Source: Polynucleobacter sp. MG-27-Goln-C1
GTDB lineage: Bacteria; Pseudomonadota; Gammaproteobacteria; Burkholderiales; Burkholderiaceae
DNA length: 64,000 nucleotides
Direction: 5' to 3'
Assembly: GCF_018881905.1 (NCBI RefSeq)
Contig: NZ_JACVPM010000003.1
Location: 62,001 to 126,000, forward strand
Shown here: one piece after another, positions 9,942-19,041 of the stretch
Position numbering within the stretch: the first letter of the stretch is position 1
Layout of the letters: every line of letters begins with the position of its first letter
Position numbers and translations under genes: made by a program
The notes under the pieces: generated by a model
What the model saw: the letters and a program-made list of their open reading frames with translations, nothing else
What the model was told of the DNA's origin: nothing
Database searches by the model: none

Positions 9942-10814
9942 TTAACGCCTGATAATTGCTTCTACTAGTGGATGCTGAATCTTCTTCTCTGAGCGAATAG
10001 CGTAAAAATATTCGTAGATATCCTCGCACTTACCAATCATTTCGATGTGATAGGTCTCTTTTAAATCCTTTTGGATTATTTCCCCGGCTGGAAATACTCC
10101 AAGACCGCTAGCTGCAAAGGTTTTTAGTAGGGCGCTATCTTCAAACTCCCCTGCGATATTGGGGTTGATGCCATTTTGAGCAAACCATTGGTCTATCAAA
10201 TGGCGAACCTTCGAGTGAGAGGTTGGTAGCAAGATGGGCAACTCATTCAGGCATGCGGGAAAGGCTTTCTTGGATTGTTTGAGTAGTTTCTTGGGCCCAA
10301 ACCATGCAATAGATGACTTGATTAATTCTTCACTGTAGACGTGAAGATTTTTGTTGATTGGAGCGGGTCTGTCAGCCAGCACAATATCCAATCTATGTAA
10401 GGCTAAGTCTGCCAAGAGATCCTCAAATTCACCTTCATGCGCAATCAGCTGCACATCATTTTTCTCTAAGATGGGTTCTAGTAACTGCCTAGTTACCAGC
10501 TTGGGTAGGCCATCGGATACGCCAACTGTAATTTTGGTTTTAGGAGAGCTTGCTGCCTCCCTCACTGCCTCAGGTAAGCGCTCACCTAAGAGAAAGATTT
10601 GATCGGCAATTGCTAGGGCAGCAAATCCAGATTCGGTTAGCGCAATACCTCGACCAGCCGGCTTAAATAGTAGATATCCCAATGATTTCTCTAATTCGTG
10701 CACTTGAGCGCTAATTGTCTGGATCGCGATATTAAGGCGTTCGGCAGCCTTAGACATGCTGCCCTCTTTAGCCACTACCCAGAAGTAGTAAAGGTGACGA
10801 TAGTTATAGAGCAT
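9942..10814 (-). CDS. nhaR: NhaR-type LysR-family regulator
   Basis: This 290-residue LysR-type regulator has a winged helix-turn-helix at residues 1-60, opening with NYRHLYYFWVVAKEGS, which is characteristic of NhaR. A substrate-binding domain follows. E. coli NhaR activates the Na+/H+ antiporter gene nhaA in response to Na+. Here the downstream gene, 3 bases away, is the Na+-dependent SbtA permease, so sodium or bicarbonate sensing is plausible (inference). It is divergent from the TerC fusion gene. The 118-base gap between them contains a cluster of CATGG repeats that may be its operator. Confidence 0.8.
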   Translation of the reverse strand: MLYNYRHLYYFWVVAKEGSMSKAAERLNIAIQTISAQVHELEKSLGYLLFKPAGRGIALTESGFAALAIADQIFLLGERLPEAVREAASSPKTKITVGVSDGLPKLVTRQLLEPILEKNDVQLIAHEGEFEDLLADLALHRLDIVLADRPAPINKNLHVYSEELIKSSIAWFGPKKLLKQSKKAFPACLNELPILLPTSHSKVRHLIDQWFAQNGINPNIAGEFEDSALLKTFAASGLGVFPAGEIIQKDLKETYHIEMIGKCEDIYEYFYAIRSEKKIQHPLVEAIIRR

Positions 10815-10932: not shown

Positions 10933-12204
10933 ATGAAATTGGAACTATTTAGCCCCGAATTTTTTTCGGCTTTGCTGGCAATCATTGTGATTGACTTGGT
11001 GCTCGCGGGTGATAACGCCATTGTGATTGCGATGGCGGCTAGAAATCTCCCTGCCCATTTACAGAAAAAGGCAATTATCTGGGGCGCTGTTGGTGCGATC
11101 GCGGTCCGAAGCGCTATGACGCTAATGGTTGTCTATTTGCTGAAGGTGCCTGGCTTGATGCTGATAGGCGGATTGCTGTTGGTTTGGATTGCTTATCGCT
11201 TGCTAAATCCAGAGCAAGAGAATGATGAGCACGGTCAAGCATCCACCACTTTTTGGGGTGCTATGAAAACCATTGTGATCGCAGATGCCATCATGGGTTT
11301 AGATAATGTGCTCGCAGTGGCAGGTGCATCTCATGGCAGTTACGTGCTTGTTGTTCTAGGGTTGTTAATCAGTATTCCAGTGGTTATTTGGGGTTCTACA
11401 CAAATACTCAAGTTGGTCGAACGCTTCCCTTCTGTTACCTACTTGGGCGCTGGCGTGCTGGCATGGACGGCTGCAAAAATGATGACCTCTGAGCCTATCT
11501 CTCAAGAGTGGCTTGCTTCCCAGAGCCCCGCTTTGGAGTACGTGATTCAAGTGGTTGTTGTGTTGGGTGTGTTAGCTAGTGGGTTTATTAGAAGTAGGCG
11601 TTCACTTGAAAGTGTGATTGCTCCTTCGGTTGTAGTTACCGAGTCTGCAAGTGTTGTTTCACAAGAGCAGTCCCCTAATTTTGGAGAAAGCAAAATGAAT
11701 AAAATTTTAATTCCTGTGGATGGTTCAAAAAATTCAGATATGGCAGTAAAGCATGCTGTGAAGACATATGGGCAGGACCCCAGTGCACATTTTCACTTGT
11801 GCAATGTACAGCCTACTTTGTATCGCCACATCGGAAAATTCTTTAGTAAACAAAGCATTAATGAGTGGCATGCTGAGCGTGCTGCCCAGGCTGCAGCGTC
11901 TGCATCCGCTTACCTCGAAAAGCATGGGTTGAACTTTTCTTTTACCTATGTGTGTGGAGATAAAGGTAGCGCCATTCGTGATGAAGCAGTGCGACTTGAA
12001 TGCAATCGCATAGTGATTGGTACTGCAAAGAAAAACTCTTTGAGCCGTTTATTTGAAAACTCTACTACCGCTAAGTTGCTTGAAATCAGCGATATTCCAG
12101 TAGAGGTGGTCACTGGCAACTCCTTGCCCGCACTTGAGCGTTGGGGTATTCCAGCCCTGGGTGCTGGCGCAGCAACTGCACTGATGGCTGTTGTGATCGA
12201 TTAG
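10933..12204 (+). CDS. TerC-family membrane protein fused to universal stress domain
   Basis: This is a 423-residue fusion. Residues 1-210 are a TerC/YjbE-type membrane domain with the two hallmark acidic repeats DLVLAGDNAIVIAMAARNLP (about 20-39) and DAIMGLDNVLAVAG (about 115-128). After a linker, residues 255-395 form a UspA-like domain, beginning NKILIPVDGSKNSDMAVKHA and containing the IVIGTAKKNSLSRLF nucleotide-loop region. A last hydrophobic segment (GAGAATALMAVVI) may re-enter the membrane. TerC proteins such as Alx and MeeF export Mn2+. The attached stress domain could gate transport (inference). GAGGAG precedes the ATG, and a terminator follows. Confidence 0.85.
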   Translation: MKLELFSPEFFSALLAIIVIDLVLAGDNAIVIAMAARNLPAHLQKKAIIWGAVGAIAVRSAMTLMVVYLLKVPGLMLIGGLLLVWIAYRLLNPEQENDEHGQASTTFWGAMKTIVIADAIMGLDNVLAVAGASHGSYVLVVLGLLISIPVVIWGSTQILKLVERFPSVTYLGAGVLAWTAAKMMTSEPISQEWLASQSPALEYVIQVVVVLGVLASGFIRSRRSLESVIAPSVVVTESASVVSQEQSPNFGESKMNKILIPVDGSKNSDMAVKHAVKTYGQDPSAHFHLCNVQPTLYRHIGKFFSKQSINEWHAERAAQAAASASAYLEKHGLNFSFTYVCGDKGSAIRDEAVRLECNRIVIGTAKKNSLSRLFENSTTAKLLEISDIPVEVVTGNSLPALERWGIPALGAGAATALMAVVID

Positions 12205-12256: not shown

Positions 12257-12363
12257 CCTTTATATATTCAGTTAAATACTGAAATAAAGTCAATTAAATT
12301 CTGCTTTATTAGAAGTAAAGATTGCCCTATTCTGAATCTGTGTTTGACAAAGGAGATATGACA

Positions 12364-12696
12364 ATGAATGTGATCTTAGATGCGAAGGAAGAAGTTGAGT
12401 CGGAATTAAAGGCCTTCACAGAGAATCGGGTGAAGTTCTCATTGAAGCGACTCTTTTGGATGGTGCGAAAAATCAAGATTCAATATTCTGCAGTGCCGTC
12501 ATCAAAGTCGACTTGCAATCAACATTGCATGATTAGCTTGGAGACATTTGACCACCATCAAATCGAGGTGAGCATGACCGCGAGAGATAGGCGGATGGCT
12601 CTAGAAATGTGCCTTAAGAAAATCTATAAGCTGATTCAGAAGGCGTTTCATAAAAGTCAAAAATATGGGCGATTTTCAAAACATGTTTACGTATGA
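12364..12696 (+). CDS. Divergent HPF/RaiA-like ribosome-associated protein
   Basis: This 110-residue basic protein shows the S30AE/HPF pattern: an ESELKAF-x-x-NRVKFSLKRLFW helix, a strand KIKIQYSAV, then IEVSMTARDRRMALEMCLKKIYKLIQKAF, resembling the strand and final helix of hibernation-promoting factors. Such proteins occupy the 30S subunit in resting cells. The match is distant and the fold is inferred. An ATG at 12358 lies only two bases after the AAAGGAG ribosome site, whereas the ATG at 12364 is 8 bases from it and is preferred. The gene ends just before the leader of the efflux operon, with no terminator seen between. Confidence 0.55.
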   Translation: MNVILDAKEEVESELKAFTENRVKFSLKRLFWMVRKIKIQYSAVPSSKSTCNQHCMISLETFDHHQIEVSMTARDRRMALEMCLKKIYKLIQKAFHKSQKYGRFSKHVYV

Positions 12697-12710
12697 GAAC
12701 TTCACCCCCA

Positions 12711-12737
12711 TTTCAATTTATTCATCATAAGTATGAT
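12711..12737 (+). promoter_or_regulatory. Possible promoter of the riboswitch-RND operon
   Basis: TATGAT at 12732-12737 could be a -10 box, with TTTCAA (12711-12716) as a poor -35 at 15 bases. This would start transcription about 8 bases before the conserved riboswitch. A short inverted repeat ATCAT-AAGT-ATGAT (12724-12737) covers the -10 and could bind a repressor. Both assignments are weak. Confidence 0.35.
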
Positions 12738-12751
12738 CTAATTACAGACAT

Positions 12752-12855
12752 ACACATGGGGAGTAGCCTGCTCAGTTTTCTGAGTCCCTTATGCCGACAA
12801 TTCGACCTTTGGGTCCGGTGTAAGGGTGATTTAATCTCAAGGCAAGACCATTTTA
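12752..12855 (+). promoter_or_regulatory. yybP-ykoY (manganese) riboswitch
   Basis: The conserved 5' strand GGGGAGTAGCC (12758-12768) and the 3' strand GGCAAGACC (12841-12849) of the yybP-ykoY class are both present. Stems seen are P1 ATGG/CCAT (12756-12759 with 12848-12851), a hairpin CTCAG-TTTT-CTGAG (12771-12784), an arm CCCTTA/TAAGGG (12786-12791 with 12821-12826), and inside it CCG/CGG and GACC-TTTG-GGTC (12804-12815). The class binds Mn2+ between its two docked arms and usually turns on Mn2+ exporters. Here it lies 157 bases before the start of a CzcC-like gene, with no other gene in between. Confidence 0.85.
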
Positions 12856-12870
12856 ATTTTTATAAATGGT
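12847..12870 (+). promoter_or_regulatory. Hairpin competing with riboswitch P1
   Basis: ACCATTT (12847-12853) pairs perfectly with AAATGGT (12864-12870). Its left arm includes the four bases that close riboswitch stem P1, so the two helices exclude one another. The run that follows (TATCTTTTGAATTT) is U-rich but interrupted. I infer an expression platform in which Mn2+-stabilised P1 prevents this hairpin. Whether it acts by termination or otherwise is not clear, because the stem is AT-rich. Confidence 0.5.
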
Positions 12871-13011
12871 TATCTTTTGAATTTGCTGCCCCAATCGTTC
12901 GTTTGTCCACTCAAAATCGTGCCCAGATCCCTGATTTGGGGAATTTCTCGGCTATTTGCCATCTCAGAGACGGATAATGGGAAGTCACATCTATTTTCTA
13001 AAATTGTCGTA

Positions 13012-14277
13012 ATGAATCGCTTAACGTCTGCATCGATACTGACTGTCTGCATCCTCTTCGCGGGCGGGGTTGGTGCGCAGGGTCAAAAGCCACTTACGCT
13101 CAATGAGTTGATAGGGATTGCATTGGAATCAAGCCCTCAAGTTTTGGCTGCACGAGATCAGTCTAAGGTAGTCAAAGGCCAGCTCTCTACTGCCCGTGCC
13201 ATTCCAAATCCTGAGTTTGAATTAAATACTGGACAACAAAGGTCGGTAACAGGTCCATTGACTACAGGTAATGTCTCATCATGGTCGGTAACACAGCCTC
13301 TGGATATGCCGTATACCCGCTATCCTAGAGTGAATGCTGCCGAAGCGAATGTCCGTGCCGCAGATGCAACGCGAATTGCATTCGAGATTGAAATGATTTC
13401 AAGAGTGCAACAGCGTTTTTATGAATTAATGCGTCGTGATGCAGAGCTAAAGGCTGCTGAAGAAGATTTGGGATTAACGAAGCAAATTCGTGATCGCATG
13501 CAAATTCGGTACGATGTTGGTGAGACTGCTCGATTTGAATTAATCCGCGCACAAACTGAGTTCCTAAATGCGCAAATTAATACGGAATCTAGCAAGCTTA
13601 GAGTTGAGCAGGCCAAGGGGCAACTCAGACAGGTGGTCGGACATAACTTGCCGGCTGACTATGAGGTGGTTTCTCAAACCTTCAAGATAGAGCCTTTACC
13701 CCCCTTACCAACCTTGCTCAGTGAGTTGCACTCGCAGAGTCCCGAGTTACAAAGGGCAAAAGCAGAGGTTGAGGCGACTGAATCTAGGCTTAGTTTTGAG
13801 CAGAACTCTCGATTACCAAAGCTGTCTATCAAGGCGCAACAATATAACGACCCCAATTTCACTGATCGCCTCTATGGCTTAGTGGTGAGCATTCCTATCT
13901 GGGACTTTAAGGGCGGGCAGATTGCAGAGGCGGAAGCTAATGCATCAAAAGCTAAGAACCAGCTTAATGCACAAAGCCAAAGTCTAGAGCAGCAGTTGGA
14001 GACAGCATACAAGCTCTATCAGATGACTAGCTATCAGGTAAAAATTCTAGATCAGGACGTTGTTCAGTTGGCCTCAAGCGCAAGGCGGATTGCCGAAGTT
14101 TCTTACCGTTATGGTGAGCGAGGCATGCTCGAGTATTTGGATGCACAAAGAACATTTAGGGTGGCTCGCAATGATTTGATCAAGGCTCGCTTTGATTTGG
14201 CTTCGGTTGTTACAGAGATTCAGCGTTTAAGAGCAACTCCAGAATGGATTGCAAAAATTGAGAGTGGAAAGCAATGA
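13012..14277 (+). CDS. czcC: Outer-membrane efflux protein, CzcC/TolC family
   Basis: This 421-residue outer-membrane channel subunit belongs to an RND efflux system. The signal peptide is residues 1-23 (ending GVGAQ), followed by two OEP repeats of long coiled helices, the second ending around EIQRLRATPEW. An in-frame ATG far upstream (12877) would put 45 unrelated residues before the signal peptide, so the ATG at 13012 is chosen. It is the first gene of a four-gene operon and overlaps the membrane-fusion gene by 4 bases. Its long leader of about 260 bases from the likely transcription start contains the Mn2+ riboswitch. The symbol is by family; Cd/Zn/Co specificity is not implied. Confidence 0.8.
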   Translation: MNRLTSASILTVCILFAGGVGAQGQKPLTLNELIGIALESSPQVLAARDQSKVVKGQLSTARAIPNPEFELNTGQQRSVTGPLTTGNVSSWSVTQPLDMPYTRYPRVNAAEANVRAADATRIAFEIEMISRVQQRFYELMRRDAELKAAEEDLGLTKQIRDRMQIRYDVGETARFELIRAQTEFLNAQINTESSKLRVEQAKGQLRQVVGHNLPADYEVVSQTFKIEPLPPLPTLLSELHSQSPELQRAKAEVEATESRLSFEQNSRLPKLSIKAQQYNDPNFTDRLYGLVVSIPIWDFKGGQIAEAEANASKAKNQLNAQSQSLEQQLETAYKLYQMTSYQVKILDQDVVQLASSARRIAEVSYRYGERGMLEYLDAQRTFRVARNDLIKARFDLASVVTEIQRLRATPEWIAKIESGKQ

Positions 14278-15620
14278 AGCAAGAATTCATGGCAGCAGTC
14301 GGAAAATTAAAGGAGCTATACGCTCGCTATAGGGCAGTGGCAAAGGTGCATATTCAGAAATGGATTGCCATCGTCATTAAAACTCAGAACGACTGGTATG
14401 CGCTGACTCATGAGTGGTTTAGTACGCATTTGCCTCGCGTTGCTCAGCAATACGATAAGAGTCCACAGTGGACTCAGAAAGGGCTTTTTTACTTTCCTTG
14501 GTTTTGTTTATTCCTGATCATCTTGAATTACTTCAATGTGTTTGATCGAAGCCCAACTATAAAGTCGGTTCAGGATCCCAATATAGTGATTGTTAATGCT
14601 GATTTAAGAAAAATGATTACAGATGGCAATATTTATACGGGCTCATTTGTTGAGGAGCTGCGAGCGTCTGGCCGCATTGATTTCAATGAGCTCTTTTTAT
14701 CCCGTATTGGTGCCAATGTTACGGGGCGAGTTTCTGATATTTTGGGTGTTCCTGGGCAGGTCGTAAAGCAGGGCGATATCCTCGCTAAAATTACTTCCAC
14801 TGAATTAACGCAATCCCAACTCGCTTACCTAAAAGCCAAGAGTGCTAGTCAGTTAGCCGATCAAGCTGCTAATCGGGCCAGAATTTTGTACAAAGAAGAT
14901 GTGATTGCGTTAGCTGAGTTGCAAAGACGTGAGTCAGAAGCTAGTAGCGCAAAGGCAGAGTTTCGTGCGGCCAATGATCAGTTGAGGGTTCAAGGTATGG
15001 ATCAGCCTAGCATTGATCGACTGGCTAAATCTGGCGTGATTGAATCCACTAATAATGTCATTGCCACTATTCCTGGTGAAATAGTTGAGCGTAAGATTAA
15101 TAAGGGTCAAGTTGTTCAGCCTGCAGAAGCGCTCTTTACAGTGGCTGACTTGAGTACTTTATGGGCCGTATCTGAGATACCTGAGAGCAATGCCTACTTG
15201 ATTCACAAGGGGCAAAAAATTACCTTGATTATTCCAGCCCTCAGGAATGCTGAGGTGGAAGGTATAGTTGCTCACGTGGACTCGATTGTGAATCCACAAA
15301 CACGTACGGTAGTTGTCAGAATGGAAGTGCCCAATAAAGATGGTCTGATCAAACCCGGCATGTTGGCAACAATGATGATTGAAAGTCAACCTACAGAGAG
15401 ATTATTGGTGCCAGTCAGTGCCGTGATTCGCCAAGATAATCATGATCATGTTTTTGTTCGTGAAGATGAAGACACCTATCGAATGGTCGCTGTTAAATTG
15501 GGGCCAGAGGGAAAAGGCTATCGTCCTGTAATTTCTGGACTCAAAGAGGGCCAGGAGATAGCTGTTAATGGGGCTTTTCATTTAAATGCTGAACGTAAGC
15601 GACAGTTGAGCGGTGGATAG
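14274..15620 (+). CDS. czcB: RND periplasmic adaptor (CzcB-like), extended N-terminus
   Basis: This 448-residue membrane-fusion protein has a single transmembrane helix at about residues 70-88 (LFYFPWFCLFLIILNYF). A barrel-sandwich/lipoyl motif follows (NVTGRVSDILGVPGQVVKQGD), then a coiled-coil hairpin, a second lipoyl half (IPGEIVERKINKGQVVQP) and a C-terminal beta-barrel and proximal domain. It joins the inner-membrane pump to the CzcC channel. Unusually, about 68 mostly basic and aromatic residues precede the membrane helix and should be cytoplasmic; most family members begin close to the helix or signal. ATGA overlap couples it to the preceding gene. Confidence 0.85.
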   Translation: MKQEFMAAVGKLKELYARYRAVAKVHIQKWIAIVIKTQNDWYALTHEWFSTHLPRVAQQYDKSPQWTQKGLFYFPWFCLFLIILNYFNVFDRSPTIKSVQDPNIVIVNADLRKMITDGNIYTGSFVEELRASGRIDFNELFLSRIGANVTGRVSDILGVPGQVVKQGDILAKITSTELTQSQLAYLKAKSASQLADQAANRARILYKEDVIALAELQRRESEASSAKAEFRAANDQLRVQGMDQPSIDRLAKSGVIESTNNVIATIPGEIVERKINKGQVVQPAEALFTVADLSTLWAVSEIPESNAYLIHKGQKITLIIPALRNAEVEGIVAHVDSIVNPQTRTVVVRMEVPNKDGLIKPGMLATMMIESQPTERLLVPVSAVIRQDNHDHVFVREDEDTYRMVAVKLGPEGKGYRPVISGLKEGQEIAVNGAFHLNAERKRQLSGG

Positions 15621-15625
15621 ATCTC

Positions 15626-18600
15626 ATGATTGAGAAAATTGTTCGACTTTCACTGCAACAGCGACTTCTAGTCGTCATTATTGCAATCGTACTGATGGTC
15701 GCAGGCTTACTTGCCACCAAGCGTTTATCAGTCGATGCTTTCCCGGATGTCACCAATGTGCAAGTGCAAATTGCCTCAGAGGCACCAGGTCGCTCGCCTG
15801 AAGAGGTCGAACGCTTTGTCACGGTGCCAGTTGAGTTAGCAATGACAGGTCTTCCGGGGTTAACGGAAATGCGCTCCCTGAACCGCAATGGTTTGTCTGT
15901 CATTACCTTGGTCTTTACTGAAAAAACTGATTTGTATTTTGCTCGTCAATTAGTTACCGAGCGCTTGATTGAGGTTGCCGCCAAAATGCCGGAGGGCATT
16001 ACTCCGGTAATGGCGCCCCCATCTACAGGGTTGGGAGAGATCTACCAATACACCCTAGACCATCCTTCTGATGGAGATAGGCAGTTATCAGTAGAAGAGC
16101 TCGAGGAACGTCGCACGATTCAAGACTGGGTTGTTCGTCCTATGTTGCGATCCATTCCAGGTGTTGCGGAAATCAATACCCAGGGCGGTTTTGCCCGTGA
16201 ATATCAGGTGCTGGTTAATCCAGAAAGATTGCGTCATTACCAAATCAGTTTGCGTGAAGTATATGAAGCGCTTGCTAGAAATAATGCCAATTCTGGCGGC
16301 GGGCAATTGCCTAGCTATGCAGAGCGTTTCCTGATTCGAGGTGTGGGATTAGTTACCAAGCCTGAAGACATTGGAAAAATTATTCTCAAAGAGGTTAAGG
16401 GAATCCCGGTTTACGTGAAGAATGTCGCGGAAGTGACTATTGGGAGCGAGGTTAGGCAGGGTGCTGCCATTAAGAATGGTTACACAGAGAGTGTTGCGGG
16501 CATCATTCAGATGATCCGCGGGGGGAATGCGCGAGAGGTTGTTAATCGCATCAAACTTAAAGTTGCCGAGATTAATGAGGGCAAGTTATTGCCTGATGGC
16601 CTGCAGATTGTGCCTTTTTATGATCGTACGGATCTGGTAAATGCTGCGATGTTCAATGTGGCCAAAGTGTTGATTGAAGGCGTGATCTTAGTAGTGATCT
16701 TGCTCTTCTTGTTCCTGGGCGATGTGCGCTCCTCTCTCATTGTGGTGGCAACCTTAATCCTGACACCACTCTTAACCTTCTTGGTCATGAATCGCTATGG
16801 GATTTCTGCCAATCTCATGTCGCTTGGAGGTTTGGCGATTGCAATCGGCATTATGGTCGATGGCTCGGTAGTAGTGGTAGAAAACACCTTTGCTAAGTTA
16901 GGTGAAAGACTGAAGACTGGTGAGTCAAAGATTCGTATTATCTTGGAGGCCGCTACCGAAGTTGGTACGCCGGTGCTCTTTGGTGTTGGCATCATTATTT
17001 TGGTTTTCATGCCTCTGCTATCTCTGGAGGGCATGGAAGGAAAGATGTTTGCACCAATGGCTATTACGATCGCCATTGCGCTCACCATTTCACTAATTCT
17101 TTCTTTCACCTTATCCCCGGTTCTGTGCTCATATATTTTGAAGGGCGGCAGTGAAGATGACACCAAAATTGTGGCGCGCTTGCGTGCTCCATATGAACGT
17201 TGGTTACATTGGAGTTTGGCTAATCCTAAGTTAGTAGTGAAACGTTCTTTAGTTGCTCTCGCAGTTAGCTTGGTGGGCTTTGTGCTTTTAGGTAAGGCAT
17301 TTATTCCAGTGATGCAGGAAGGTTCGATTACCCCAGTGATTGTGCGAGCTCCAAATATCTCTTTGGATGAATCGATTAAGTTGGAGTTTGAGGCGATCAA
17401 ACGCATTATGACAATTCCAGATGTTCAGATGGCGGTATCTCGTTTAGGCAAGGGAGAATCCCCCGCAGACCCGGGGCAGCCTAATGAATCTGACCCGATT
17501 GTGACCCTCAAGCCTTTGGGGGATCGTAAGCTCAGTCAGGAAGAGATCGCGCAAGAGATTCGTGACAAATTGAAGACCTTGCCAGGTATTGAGCTCTCGA
17601 TTTCTCAACCAATTGCTGCGCGTGTAGATGAAATGGTTTCTGGCGTGCGTTCTCAAGTGGCAATCAAAATTTTTGGAGATGATATGGCCACACTCCAAAA
17701 GCTGGGTGCTCAGATCAGTCAAATTCTGACCAAGATGAAGGGCAGTAATGACTTGCGCATCGAGCAAGCCACTGGGCAAAACTATCTCAATATCAACATC
17801 AATCGCGATGCAATCGCTCGGTATGGAATTAATGTTTCTGATGTAAATGATGTGATTGAAACAGCAATAGGTGGTAAGCAGGCAAGTACAGTGTATGAAG
17901 GAGAGAGACGCTTTCCTTTAGTTCTGCGTTATCCAGCCCCATACCGGGACAAAGTGGATGCGATTGAAAACATCATCTTGCATTCACCTGATGGCGCTCA
18001 AGTCCTGATGCGTGACTTAGCTGATATTTCTTTGGTTGACGGCCCGGCACAGATTTCTCGAGAGTCTGGTAAGCGACGTTTAGTCGTTGGCGTCAATGTG
18101 GATGGTCGAGATCTTGGTGGATTCGTAAAAGAGGCGCAAAGTCTTATCGCTAAGCAGGTAGAGTTACCGCAAGGCTATAGCCTGGAGTGGGGCGGACAAT
18201 TTGAAAACATGGAACGCGCTATGGCGCGTTTGATGATCATCATCCCATTAACGATTTTGGCTATCTACTTCCTGCTCTTCATGCTCTTTAAGTCCATGCG
18301 CTTGGCAGGTCTGATTATTTTGGTCTTGCCGTTTGCCTCGATCGGCGGTGTCTTTGGTTTGTTCATCACGGGTGAGTATTTGTCTGTTCCAGCTGCAGTT
18401 GGATTCATCAATCTTTGGGGTATTGCAGTGCTCAATGGCGTGGTCTTAATTTCGTTTATTAAGCAATTGCGCGAGGATGGTTACTCAATGGAAGATGCCT
18501 TGCTCCATGGCTGTGGTCATCGCTTTAGGCCGGTCATGATGACTGCTTCTGTGGCGATGTTGGCTTTGGTGCCGATGCTCTTTTCTGGTGGTCCTGGCTC

Positions 18601-18721
18601 TGAGGTGACTCGCCCATTAGCAGCCGTAGTAATCTCAGGATTAATAACCTCAACCGCATTAACATTACTAGTACTCCCTGTCTTATACAGATGGTTTGAA
18701 GATAAAGAGGTGGAAGCATGA
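15626..18721 (+). CDS. czcA: Heavy-metal RND transporter (CzcA/CusA family)
   Basis: This 1031-residue inner-membrane proton antiporter has about 12 transmembrane helices and two large periplasmic loops, the full length expected. The TM4 motif reads AIAIGIMVDGSVVVVEN, with the proton-relay Asp near residue 412. The Zn/Co/Cd subgroup has DFG-x3-DGA here, so this protein lacks the first Asp of that motif and its metal cannot be read as Zn/Co/Cd. Its promoter region carries a Mn2+ riboswitch, suggesting Mn2+ as substrate or signal (inference). It is followed by a PII-like gene overlapping its stop by 4 bases. Confidence 0.88.
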   Translation: MIEKIVRLSLQQRLLVVIIAIVLMVAGLLATKRLSVDAFPDVTNVQVQIASEAPGRSPEEVERFVTVPVELAMTGLPGLTEMRSLNRNGLSVITLVFTEKTDLYFARQLVTERLIEVAAKMPEGITPVMAPPSTGLGEIYQYTLDHPSDGDRQLSVEELEERRTIQDWVVRPMLRSIPGVAEINTQGGFAREYQVLVNPERLRHYQISLREVYEALARNNANSGGGQLPSYAERFLIRGVGLVTKPEDIGKIILKEVKGIPVYVKNVAEVTIGSEVRQGAAIKNGYTESVAGIIQMIRGGNAREVVNRIKLKVAEINEGKLLPDGLQIVPFYDRTDLVNAAMFNVAKVLIEGVILVVILLFLFLGDVRSSLIVVATLILTPLLTFLVMNRYGISANLMSLGGLAIAIGIMVDGSVVVVENTFAKLGERLKTGESKIRIILEAATEVGTPVLFGVGIIILVFMPLLSLEGMEGKMFAPMAITIAIALTISLILSFTLSPVLCSYILKGGSEDDTKIVARLRAPYERWLHWSLANPKLVVKRSLVALAVSLVGFVLLGKAFIPVMQEGSITPVIVRAPNISLDESIKLEFEAIKRIMTIPDVQMAVSRLGKGESPADPGQPNESDPIVTLKPLGDRKLSQEEIAQEIRDKLKTLPGIELSISQPIAARVDEMVSGVRSQVAIKIFGDDMATLQKLGAQISQILTKMKGSNDLRIEQATGQNYLNININRDAIARYGINVSDVNDVIETAIGGKQASTVYEGERRFPLVLRYPAPYRDKVDAIENIILHSPDGAQVLMRDLADISLVDGPAQISRESGKRRLVVGVNVDGRDLGGFVKEAQSLIAKQVELPQGYSLEWGGQFENMERAMARLMIIIPLTILAIYFLLFMLFKSMRLAGLIILVLPFASIGGVFGLFITGEYLSVPAAVGFINLWGIAVLNGVVLISFIKQLREDGYSMEDALLHGCGHRFRPVMMTASVAMLALVPMLFSGGPGSEVTRPLAAVVISGLITSTALTLLVLPVLYRWFEDKEVEA

Positions 18722-19041
18722 TGGAAGTGAAGGCGGTCATTCGCCCAAATAAATTAGCCACCCTCAGAACGGCGCTACTGGAGACCCCAGGCTTTCCGGG
18801 GATGACGGTGACTAAAGTTGAGGGATGTAGCGCTCCCAATCGCACTGGTAAGTTCAATATCAAAGATGAACTCACGGACTATTCTGCGAAAGTGAAGGTT
18901 GAAATTGTTTGCAATGATGAGGTTGCGCAGGTTTTCATGGACCGGATTGTGACTATTTGCCAAACTGGTCAAGTAGGGGACGGTGTAGTTTGGTGTACTG
19001 AGGTTCCCAAGGCCTTCTTTATTGCAAAATCCACGCCATAA
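18718..19041 (+). CDS. PII-like signalling protein of the RND-linked group
   Basis: This 107-residue ferredoxin-like-fold protein opens with MEVKAVIRPNKLATLRTALLE, the PII N-terminal strand and helix. It continues with a short T-loop region (CSAPNRTGKFNIKDELTD) and VKVEIVCNDEVAQVFMDRIVTICQTGQVGDGVVWCTEV, the PII B/C-loop region with GDG in place of GDGKIFV. The uridylylated T-loop Tyr is not recognisable. A distinct PII subgroup (PII-NG) encoded beside heavy-metal RND operons has been described, and this gene fits it. Two adjacent ATG codons (18718, 18721) are possible starts. It presumably senses a small ligand to tune the pump, which is untested. Confidence 0.75.
   Translation: MMEVKAVIRPNKLATLRTALLETPGFPGMTVTKVEGCSAPNRTGKFNIKDELTDYSAKVKVEIVCNDEVAQVFMDRIVTICQTGQVGDGVVWCTEVPKAFFIAKSTP

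Follow-up and report, generated by a model that had tools for sequence, protein, structure and literature searches.

Why would an operon for a resistance-nodulation-division (RND) efflux pump be preceded by a riboswitch of the manganese class? The question is raised by a stretch of 64,000 nucleotides from Polynucleobacter sp. MG-27-Goln-C1 (contig NZ_JACVPM010000003.1, positions 62,001 to 126,000; hereafter the window), in which the leader of a czcCBA-like operon with a PII-like fourth gene carries an element resembling the yybP-ykoY riboswitches (Rfam RF00080). A first-pass annotation had read this arrangement as a Mn2+ exporter acting across both membranes. Judging from related sequences, the leader element is almost certainly a real yybP-ykoY aptamer linked to the RND operon; control of the czcC operon by Mn2+ is very likely, and Mn2+ as the pump cargo is likely but unproven. 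For the complete reading, in which a Mn2+ ON switch governs an envelope-spanning pump with Mn2+ as cargo, we estimate a probability of roughly 0.57, all steps taken together.

Aptamer identity and linkage to the pump operon

At Rfam gathering thresholds no RF00080 match was obtained anywhere in the window, two tRNAs being the sole calls, and at E ≤ 0.001 the whole 2.0-Mb genome of the strain gave no RF00080 match. A permissive local search of positions 12690 to 13020 placed RF00080 at 12757 to 12920 as the top of five matches (E 0.00072), with 20.5 bits against a cut-off of 45. The first-pass annotation would have abandoned the riboswitch if no significant RF00080 match appeared, and the profile search came close to that outcome before the comparative evidence confirmed the element. 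Rfam scores alone leave the riboswitch claim open, and it is the comparison of relatives that settles it; the class assignment rests on conserved strands, loops and helices instead of the gathering score.

The pump served as bait, and of the 518 encoding stretches that it retrieved the best 80 were taken, the top ones mostly from Polynucleobacter. The pattern GGGGAGTA...C[AG]AGAC lies upstream of the pump operon at 29 of these 80 loci; in 28 Polynucleobacter-type loci it precedes czcC, and in one further locus, L049, it precedes TerC-czcC. The form GGGGAGTAGC...CAAGACC is present a single time in the window and was absent from all 100 shuffles. In an alignment of 30 rows including the window (29 distinct), helices P1 to P3, drawn by hand from the window, show 93.7% of cells as standard pairs, while slid-partner controls reach at most 42.1%, a comparison that favours the drawn helices since the structure was drawn on one alignment row. 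Two-sided changes occur at 11 of 25 pairs, and the covariation score is 0.295 versus 0.176 ± 0.009 in shuffles (0 of 500 as high); the count of further pair types is less clear, being equalled in 42 of 500 shuffles. The aptamer alone folds as expected (z −2.77). The L1 strand GGGGAGUAG and the 3' GCAAGAC strand that close P1.1/P1.2 are present, and so is the L3 loop between the P3 helices and CCGG. L3 reads UCAAUUC in L. lactis and ACAUACU in X. oryzae, where the first A after C (A41/A48) is an invariant Mn2+ contact (PMC6754395); the corresponding A12799 is invariant in all 30 rows. The conserved strands and stems that had been noticed in the czcC leader are thus verified by relatives, covariation and this adenosine.

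A covariance model built from the aligned relatives (R1) was run on 186 genus and 399 order genomes. In the genome of the strain it finds a single match, at the window site. Matches occur in 83 of the 186 genus genomes, 85 in total; 66 of the 85 are followed, in the same orientation and 2.66 to 3.30 kb downstream, by a listed orthologue of the pump. Orthologues, counted among the matches listed down to about 36 to 37% identity, are present in 84 genus genomes, of which 66 are linked to an R1 match and 18 are not, some of the latter having the pump on a short contig. Two of the 66 linked elements (G005 and G088) are decayed. Mapped onto a 39-pump tree, the label for the riboswitch requires 5 changes versus 11.1 when shuffled; a single gain following the split of L029/L072, with some four losses, would fit this. 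At least eight Polynucleobacter genomes have an R1 match and no RF00080 match at E ≤ 0.01, which shows that many short Mn2+-type aptamers escape RF00080. One pump locus 86% identical to that of the window (L023) comes from a record that bears the name Thermoflexus hugenholtzii (Chloroflexota) and is probably a mis-binned contig.

Other Mn2+-type elements of the genus stand before usual targets, namely TerC or GDT1/UPF0016 genes. Nine of the 19 unlinked R1 matches were inspected: six lie before TerC (L082 to L087), two before a LysR gene (L089 761-1867, L090 3051-4142), and the ninth (L088), by our own reading, before a czcC remnant left after pump loss, in which Pfam finds nothing. RF00080 has matches in nine same-genus genomes of a family sample, and the five loci inspected (L093 to L097) precede GDT1/UPF0016.

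R1 was also run over the window and 52 loci, 51 without the motif plus L049. Besides the window, it matched L049 (27.3 bits), the decayed L009 (27.1 bits) and L070, whose match (16.7 bits, E 0.14) falls within czcA and was discounted as chance. L049 belongs to a Burkholderiales metagenome-assembled genome, its pump is 70% identical, and its aptamer (1258-1408) is followed by TerC, OEP, HlyD, RND and P-II, all on one strand. Because the pump tree groups L049 with Parvibium, apart from Polynucleobacter, its linkage would reflect either a second capture or an old link lost many times. Among the 38 genomes holding the 39 non-Polynucleobacter bait loci, six have RF00080 matches, and these seven matches (one sub-cut-off) precede GDT1 (5), MntP (1) and TerC (1).

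How unusual is an RND pump as target? RF00080 matches were found in 128 of 398 genomes phylum-wide and in 321 of 398 in a family search, and 80 control loci were assembled (60 from the phylum-wide search, 7 from the bait-locus genomes, 13 from the family search). Their first genes are GDT1 (55), Na/Ca exchanger-like (13), MntP (11) and TerC (1), with RND at 0 of 80, as classed by tblastn against a small reference set with Pfam on representatives only; the control loci are high-scoring matches, so weak RF00080 relatives are under-sampled. R1 has matches in 57 of the 399 order genomes, and 40 loci from the listed order-wide matches are followed by LysR (16), TerC/Alx-type TerC (14), MntP (4), Na/Ca-type (2), GDT1 (2), P-type ATPase (1) and one unclear gene, again with no RND. 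The assertion that the pump is an odd target for this class is therefore upheld by the 0 of 80 count. Two apparent RND targets were rejected: in one genome (G911; L158/L198) mntP stands behind the aptamer and a TetR-like gene (by eye) precedes an unrelated RND system, and at L218 a short LysR-type open reading frame (ORF) comes before an unrelated adaptor/RND pair.

The LysR-family genes form a side observation of their own. A gene with the motif x-RRYLRHG.LPQL stands directly behind the aptamer at 14 of the 40 order-wide loci, or 16 with its BLAST cluster (L186 to L225), an arrangement that the accessible text of PMC11477304 does not report. At L189, L194, L213 and L218 the ORF stops about 100 to 113 codons after the motif start and probably encodes the helix-turn-helix only (Pfam for L213). 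At L214/L215 (G1158) and L193/L225 (G983) a single intergenic region holds a divergent pair of Mn2+-type aptamers, one ahead of TerC/Alx and the other ahead of the LysR gene.

Promoter and switching platform

An extended -10 element, exact TGATCTAAT, was read by eye in 22 of 29 leaders (those of the window and of 28 loci, without L049) at a similar spacing to the aptamer, with variants in the other seven; a looser promoter pattern that matches 29/29 was written after viewing the leaders. The transcript start would be expected near 12749, and this layout supports a promoter at the aptamer that serves the riboswitch and pump operon as their own.

The 3' P1 strand GACCAUUU can pair alternatively with AAAUGGU, 10 nt downstream, which excludes P1.1. 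This arm lies outside the aptamer and is kept in 27 of 29 leaders, L019 and L027 being without it; in RNAfold predictions P1 is kept without the arm and lost with it. A U run follows the platform hairpin in L025 and L026 but just UUAUCUUUUG, no clean run, in the window, so termination is the likely control mode of the czcC leader, whether intrinsic or Rho-dependent. The TerC leaders seem to work differently: in L082 to L084 and L087 the start codon is near, and UCCUU before GGCAAGACC can pair with the ribosome-site AAGGA, while in L085 and L086 both sides are changed (UUCUU/AAGAG) with the pairing preserved (by eye), which makes translation control likely. We infer the ON direction from these leader layouts and the mechanism in PMC6754395. 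Three points speak against the Mn2+ ON-switch reading as a whole: the missing U-run in the window, the fold including the platform hairpin, which 3 of 200 shuffles equal, and the review PMC11477304, which terms Mn2+ riboswitches OFF switches, versus the ON mode in PMC6754395.

The aptamer might also be a relic or bystander, with the real control elsewhere, for example at another promoter nearer to czcC. The leader has conserved GGATAAT-like and CCCCAAATTGGGG stretches 3' of the aptamer and ahead of czcC that would suit this, as would the persistence of the pump where the element is absent or decayed; but compensatory changes, the promoter-like element and the widely kept anti-P1 arm show that the switch is under selection, and we regard a relic as very improbable.

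For the Mn2+ ON switch, the following sequence may be proposed. Transcription of czcCBA-PII would begin at the operon's own promoter just 5' of the aptamer. At low Mn2+, GACCAUUU would pair with AAAUGGU, P1 would be lost and the operon would be turned off by premature termination (intrinsic or Rho-dependent). With more Mn2+ in the cytoplasm, the ion would bridge L1 and L3, P1.1 would be held, the hairpin blocked and the operon transcribed. The tripartite RND pump would then expel Mn2+ across the outer membrane; it would probably load the ion in the periplasm, to which TerC- or GDT1-type inner-membrane proteins would have delivered it.

Pump, PII-like protein and the exported ion

The pump, 98% identical to that of Polynucleobacter sp. 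80A-SIGWE, belongs to the TIGR00914 CusA/CzcA family above its cut-off and stands with an adaptor and an outer-membrane factor, as in heavy-metal efflux (HME) RND systems. Its nearest solved relatives are ZneA and then CusA. Its TM4 reads AIG-IMV-DGS-VVV-VEN and lacks the first Asp of DFG-DGA-VEN, so it does not carry the HME1/HME2 (Zn/Co/Cd or Co/Ni) motif DFGx3DGAx3VEN as defined in PMC3637150. The first-pass annotation was correct about the missing Asp and took it as a pointer to another metal. However, this position is Ala in 76 of 76 aligned pumps (37/37 Polynucleobacter, 39/39 others), with or without a riboswitch, and likewise in CusA; as a mark of the wider pump group, TM4 was dropped as a sign of Mn2+. 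The columns of the CusA methionine trio, which we take to be M573, M623 and M672, hold V571, S622 and E669 in the window pump, unlike an HME4 (Cu/Ag) pump, and this lack of the Cu+/Ag+ methionines would count for the Mn2+ reading. The columns of ZneA E610 and D654, residues whose roles in ZneA we assume, are D and A in Polynucleobacter and L049, as counted on the alignment, and vary in the others; it is a hint, no more, of a retuned pocket. In a search for hints of the metal among 20 proteins encoded around 10 outgroup loci, MgtE (L043, divergent from czcC) was the sole cation-transporter domain; a TonB-receptor plug domain was seen at L042.

The fourth gene encodes a P-II protein (PF00543), as had been noticed. 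Of the 80 pump loci, 65 yielded a PII gene of at least 85 aa; 38 of these 65 do not have the riboswitch motif, and some of the 38 are cut short. In the columns of GlnB Y51, the uridylylation site, and K90, the lysine of GDGK, the window has E and V, and no Y and no K occur there in 66 rows; it is not a canonical PII (GlnB/GlnK). TG..GDG is retained, and Cys37 is found in 59 of 66 rows. Since the PII gene clusters with CzcABC genes in the window and the pump loci, the PII-NG type may be assigned by context. Most PII-NG genes cluster with CzcABC (Sant'Anna 2009, as cited in PMC7726332), and PMC7726332 suggests metal sensing. The 38 motif-less loci refute PII as a feature specific to the riboswitch operon, and PII appears to be tied to the pump, not to the riboswitch. 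A small-molecule or Mn-specific control by PII finds no support, given the same loci, the printed association of PII-NG with CzcABC and the missing Tyr51/Lys90 counterparts; PII control of the pump is unsupported. Both the PII gene and the missing TM4 Asp are common to riboswitch-less pump relatives, and thus neither argues for Mn2+.

In the genome of the strain, TerC is encoded next to the operon and a second time elsewhere, a GDT1 gene is present, and MntP gave no match. Of 41 Polynucleobacter-type loci, 22 have TerC on the 5' side of czcC, although 7 of the 41 are truncated on that side, and L049 has it there as well. No riboswitch was found before the TerC-Usp gene of the window, the genome holding one R1 match. 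The proposal of a Mn2+ exporter is strengthened by aptamers before TerC/GDT1 in sister genomes, by the TerC gene adjoining the operon and by the gene order of L049, while Mn2+ as the ion itself stays at the level of inference.

Several observations weigh against the Mn2+ exporter. Pump homologues at 62 to 74% identity in other beta- and gammaproteobacteria show no such riboswitch in the R1 search, except L049, and keep the TM4 and most pocket residues of the window, so the ancestral cargo may have been another metal. Within Polynucleobacter, L008, L010/G009, L029, L072, G004, G078 and G125 have the pump without an R1 match, and L009/L092 and L091 combine a decayed riboswitch with an intact pump operon. 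The GDT1 gene of the strain has no motif in front, and a Geobacter PII-NG-czcABC operon responds to Co2+ and Fe status (PMC7726332). The riboswitch could sense Mn2+ while the pump exports other divalent ions (Zn, Co, Cd, Ni, Fe) or a broad set, being raised under Mn2+ stress since excess Mn2+ displaces or mis-metallates. The TM4 and several pocket residues that relatives share whether or not they have the riboswitch, the homologues that show no Mn riboswitch, the kinship to ZneA and the Co/Fe link in Geobacter would all agree with this. On the other side, the controls yielded MntP, GDT1, TerC, Na/Ca-type exchangers and one P-type ATPase as transporter targets but no Zn/Co/Cd pumps, TerC adjoins the operon, and in L049 a single aptamer precedes both TerC and the pump. 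We consider export of other ions unlikely, although worth serious weight.

The switch itself may be less selective than supposed. Mn2+ riboswitches also bind Co2+, Cd2+ and Ni2+ (PMC11477304), a further point against Mn2+, the X. oryzae aptamer docks with Cd2+ too (PMC6754395), and all three ions are substrates of Czc-type pumps, so the aptamer might respond in vivo also or mainly to Cd2+, Co2+ or Ni2+ and serve as a promiscuous switch for an ordinary Cd/Zn/Co pump. Because of the statement in PMC11477304, this explanation was raised slightly and our estimate for the Mn2+ exporter lowered from 0.6. It nevertheless appears improbable, given the intact Mn-contact adenosine, the sister elements before TerC and GDT1 genes and the small selective force that Cd2+, Co2+ or Ni2+ presumably exert in humic fresh water. 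The decayed riboswitches of L009/L092 and L091 are natural tests of switch loss.

If Mn2+ is the cargo, a wider picture may tentatively be drawn, to which we give less than even odds: a two-step, RNA-controlled Mn2+ export across both membranes, with TerC (or GDT1), a dedicated RND pump brought under the riboswitch in Polynucleobacter and perhaps separately in the L049 lineage, and a metal-responsive PII-like second layer. Each transporter target in the controls is a lone protein of the inner membrane. If the regulon also includes an RND pump that crosses the envelope, defence against Mn2+ would extend to the periplasm in some Gram-negative bacteria, and the PII-linked HME-RND group (AIG-DGS-VEN) would gain a testable substrate. 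For annotation, the RND operon is an added riboswitch target class.

Locus layout and comparison with known systems

The features of the locus are collected in Table 1. The small ORF between the TerC-Usp gene and the riboswitch is conserved (110 to 124 aa) and occurs at about 24 of 41 Polynucleobacter-type loci (tblastn, counted by eye); small ORFs without a Pfam match also lie 5' of czcC in some outgroups. Between aptamer and czcC (12890-13012), conserved CCCCAA...TTGGGG and GGATAAT stretches stand at the same place in many of the loci L001 to L050 (by eye). In several species a short upstream ORF precedes czcC, its stop overlapping the czcC start (TAATG/TGATG), again read by eye.

Table 1. 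Features of the pump locus and its surroundings (window positions)
Feature	Position	Strand	Remarks
LysR-type gene	9942-10814	-	by eye; divergent from TerC-Usp gene
TerC (YjbE-type) fused to Usp domain	10933-12204	+	upstream neighbour; PF03741, PF00582, TIGR03717 R_switched_YjbE
Small ORF	12322-12696		no Pfam or NCBIfam match; between TerC-Usp and riboswitch
Extended -10 promoter element TGATCTAAT	12734-12742	+	15 nt 5' of aptamer G-run
yybP-ykoY (Mn2+) riboswitch aptamer	12757-12850	+	RF00080 sub-cut-off match, relatives, covariation, folding
Aptamer P1.1	12757-12759/12848-12850	+
Aptamer P1.2	12766-12768/12841-12843	+
Aptamer P2	12771-12774/12781-12784	+
Aptamer P3.1	12786-12796/12816-12826	+
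L3 metal-sensing loop, ACAAUUC	12797-12803	+	A12799 corresponds to A41 (L. lactis) / A48 (X. oryzae)
Aptamer P3.2	12804-12807/12812-12815	+
Anti-P1 hairpin	12847-12870	+	ACCATTT 12847-12853 / AAATGGT 12864-12870; probable expression platform
czcC-like outer-membrane factor	13013-14277	+	PF02321; ATG 13013 picked by eye, ORF open from TTG 12877
czcB-like periplasmic adaptor	14274-15620	+	PF16576, TIGR01730
czcA-like RND pump	15626-18721	+	PF00873; TIGR00914 1115 bits vs cut-off 701
PII-like protein (PII-NG type by context)	18718-19041	+	PF00543; 4-base overlap with czcA stop

The riboswitch class and the pump family are both known; their pairing did not turn up in the literature searched and would be the new element. 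No RND operon was reported as a yybP-ykoY target in that literature, which consisted mostly of titles and abstract openings, and a mention in the two founding 2015 papers is possible. Likewise, no RND target with a Mn2+ riboswitch is reported in the accessible parts of PMC7726332, PMC9495176, PMC7011215, PMC6754395, PMC3637150, PMC3870273, PMC8632094, PMC2864571, PMC2864759, PMC11477304, PMC12096827 and PMC7689651. In PMC8632094, a structured-RNA search that includes Polynucleobacter, the main text as available has no mention of Mn2+, manganese, yybP or RND. The Herbaspirillum element sits before mntP (PMC7011215).

Like the RF00080 riboswitches of L. lactis yoaB, X. oryzae and E. coli mntP/alx, the window element has the GGGGAGUAGC L1 strand, the sensing A of L3, CCGG and GCAAGACC, the P1-P3 order and a P1 that competes with a downstream hairpin. 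Unlike them, it is short (about 94 nt), it scores far below the family cut-off, and an RND operon takes the place of MntP, GDT1/UPF0016, TerC, a Na/Ca-type exchanger or a P-type ATPase as its target. With CzcCBA, ZneCAB and CusCBA the operon shares an outer-membrane factor, an adaptor and an RND pump of TIGR00914 in one unit, but its TM4 is AIG-DGS-VEN, not DFG-DGA-VEN, the CusA methionine trio is absent, and a Mn2+-class riboswitch replaces protein sensors of HME-RND systems such as CzcRS and CnrYXH (PMC7689651). In Geobacter (GSU2134-2137) a PII-like gene is also inside the pump operon, but there PII comes first and the operon is linked to Co2+ and Fur (PMC7726332), whereas in the window PII is last and a riboswitch stands in front. 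The same aptamer type precedes genes of the riboswitch-controlled TerC family (TIGR03717 YjbE) in sister genomes, while the TerC-Usp gene of the window lies upstream of the riboswitch, not behind it. The nearest TerC-RND precedent, which would speak for the Mn2+ reading, is the B. subtilis TerC protein MeeY, whose partner in surfactin export is the RND pump SwrC (PMC12096827). There too a TerC-family Mn2+ protein is paired with an RND exporter, but SwrC exports surfactin, MeeY is proposed to give the cargo its metal, and neither a czcCBA operon nor a shared riboswitch is reported in the available part of that paper.

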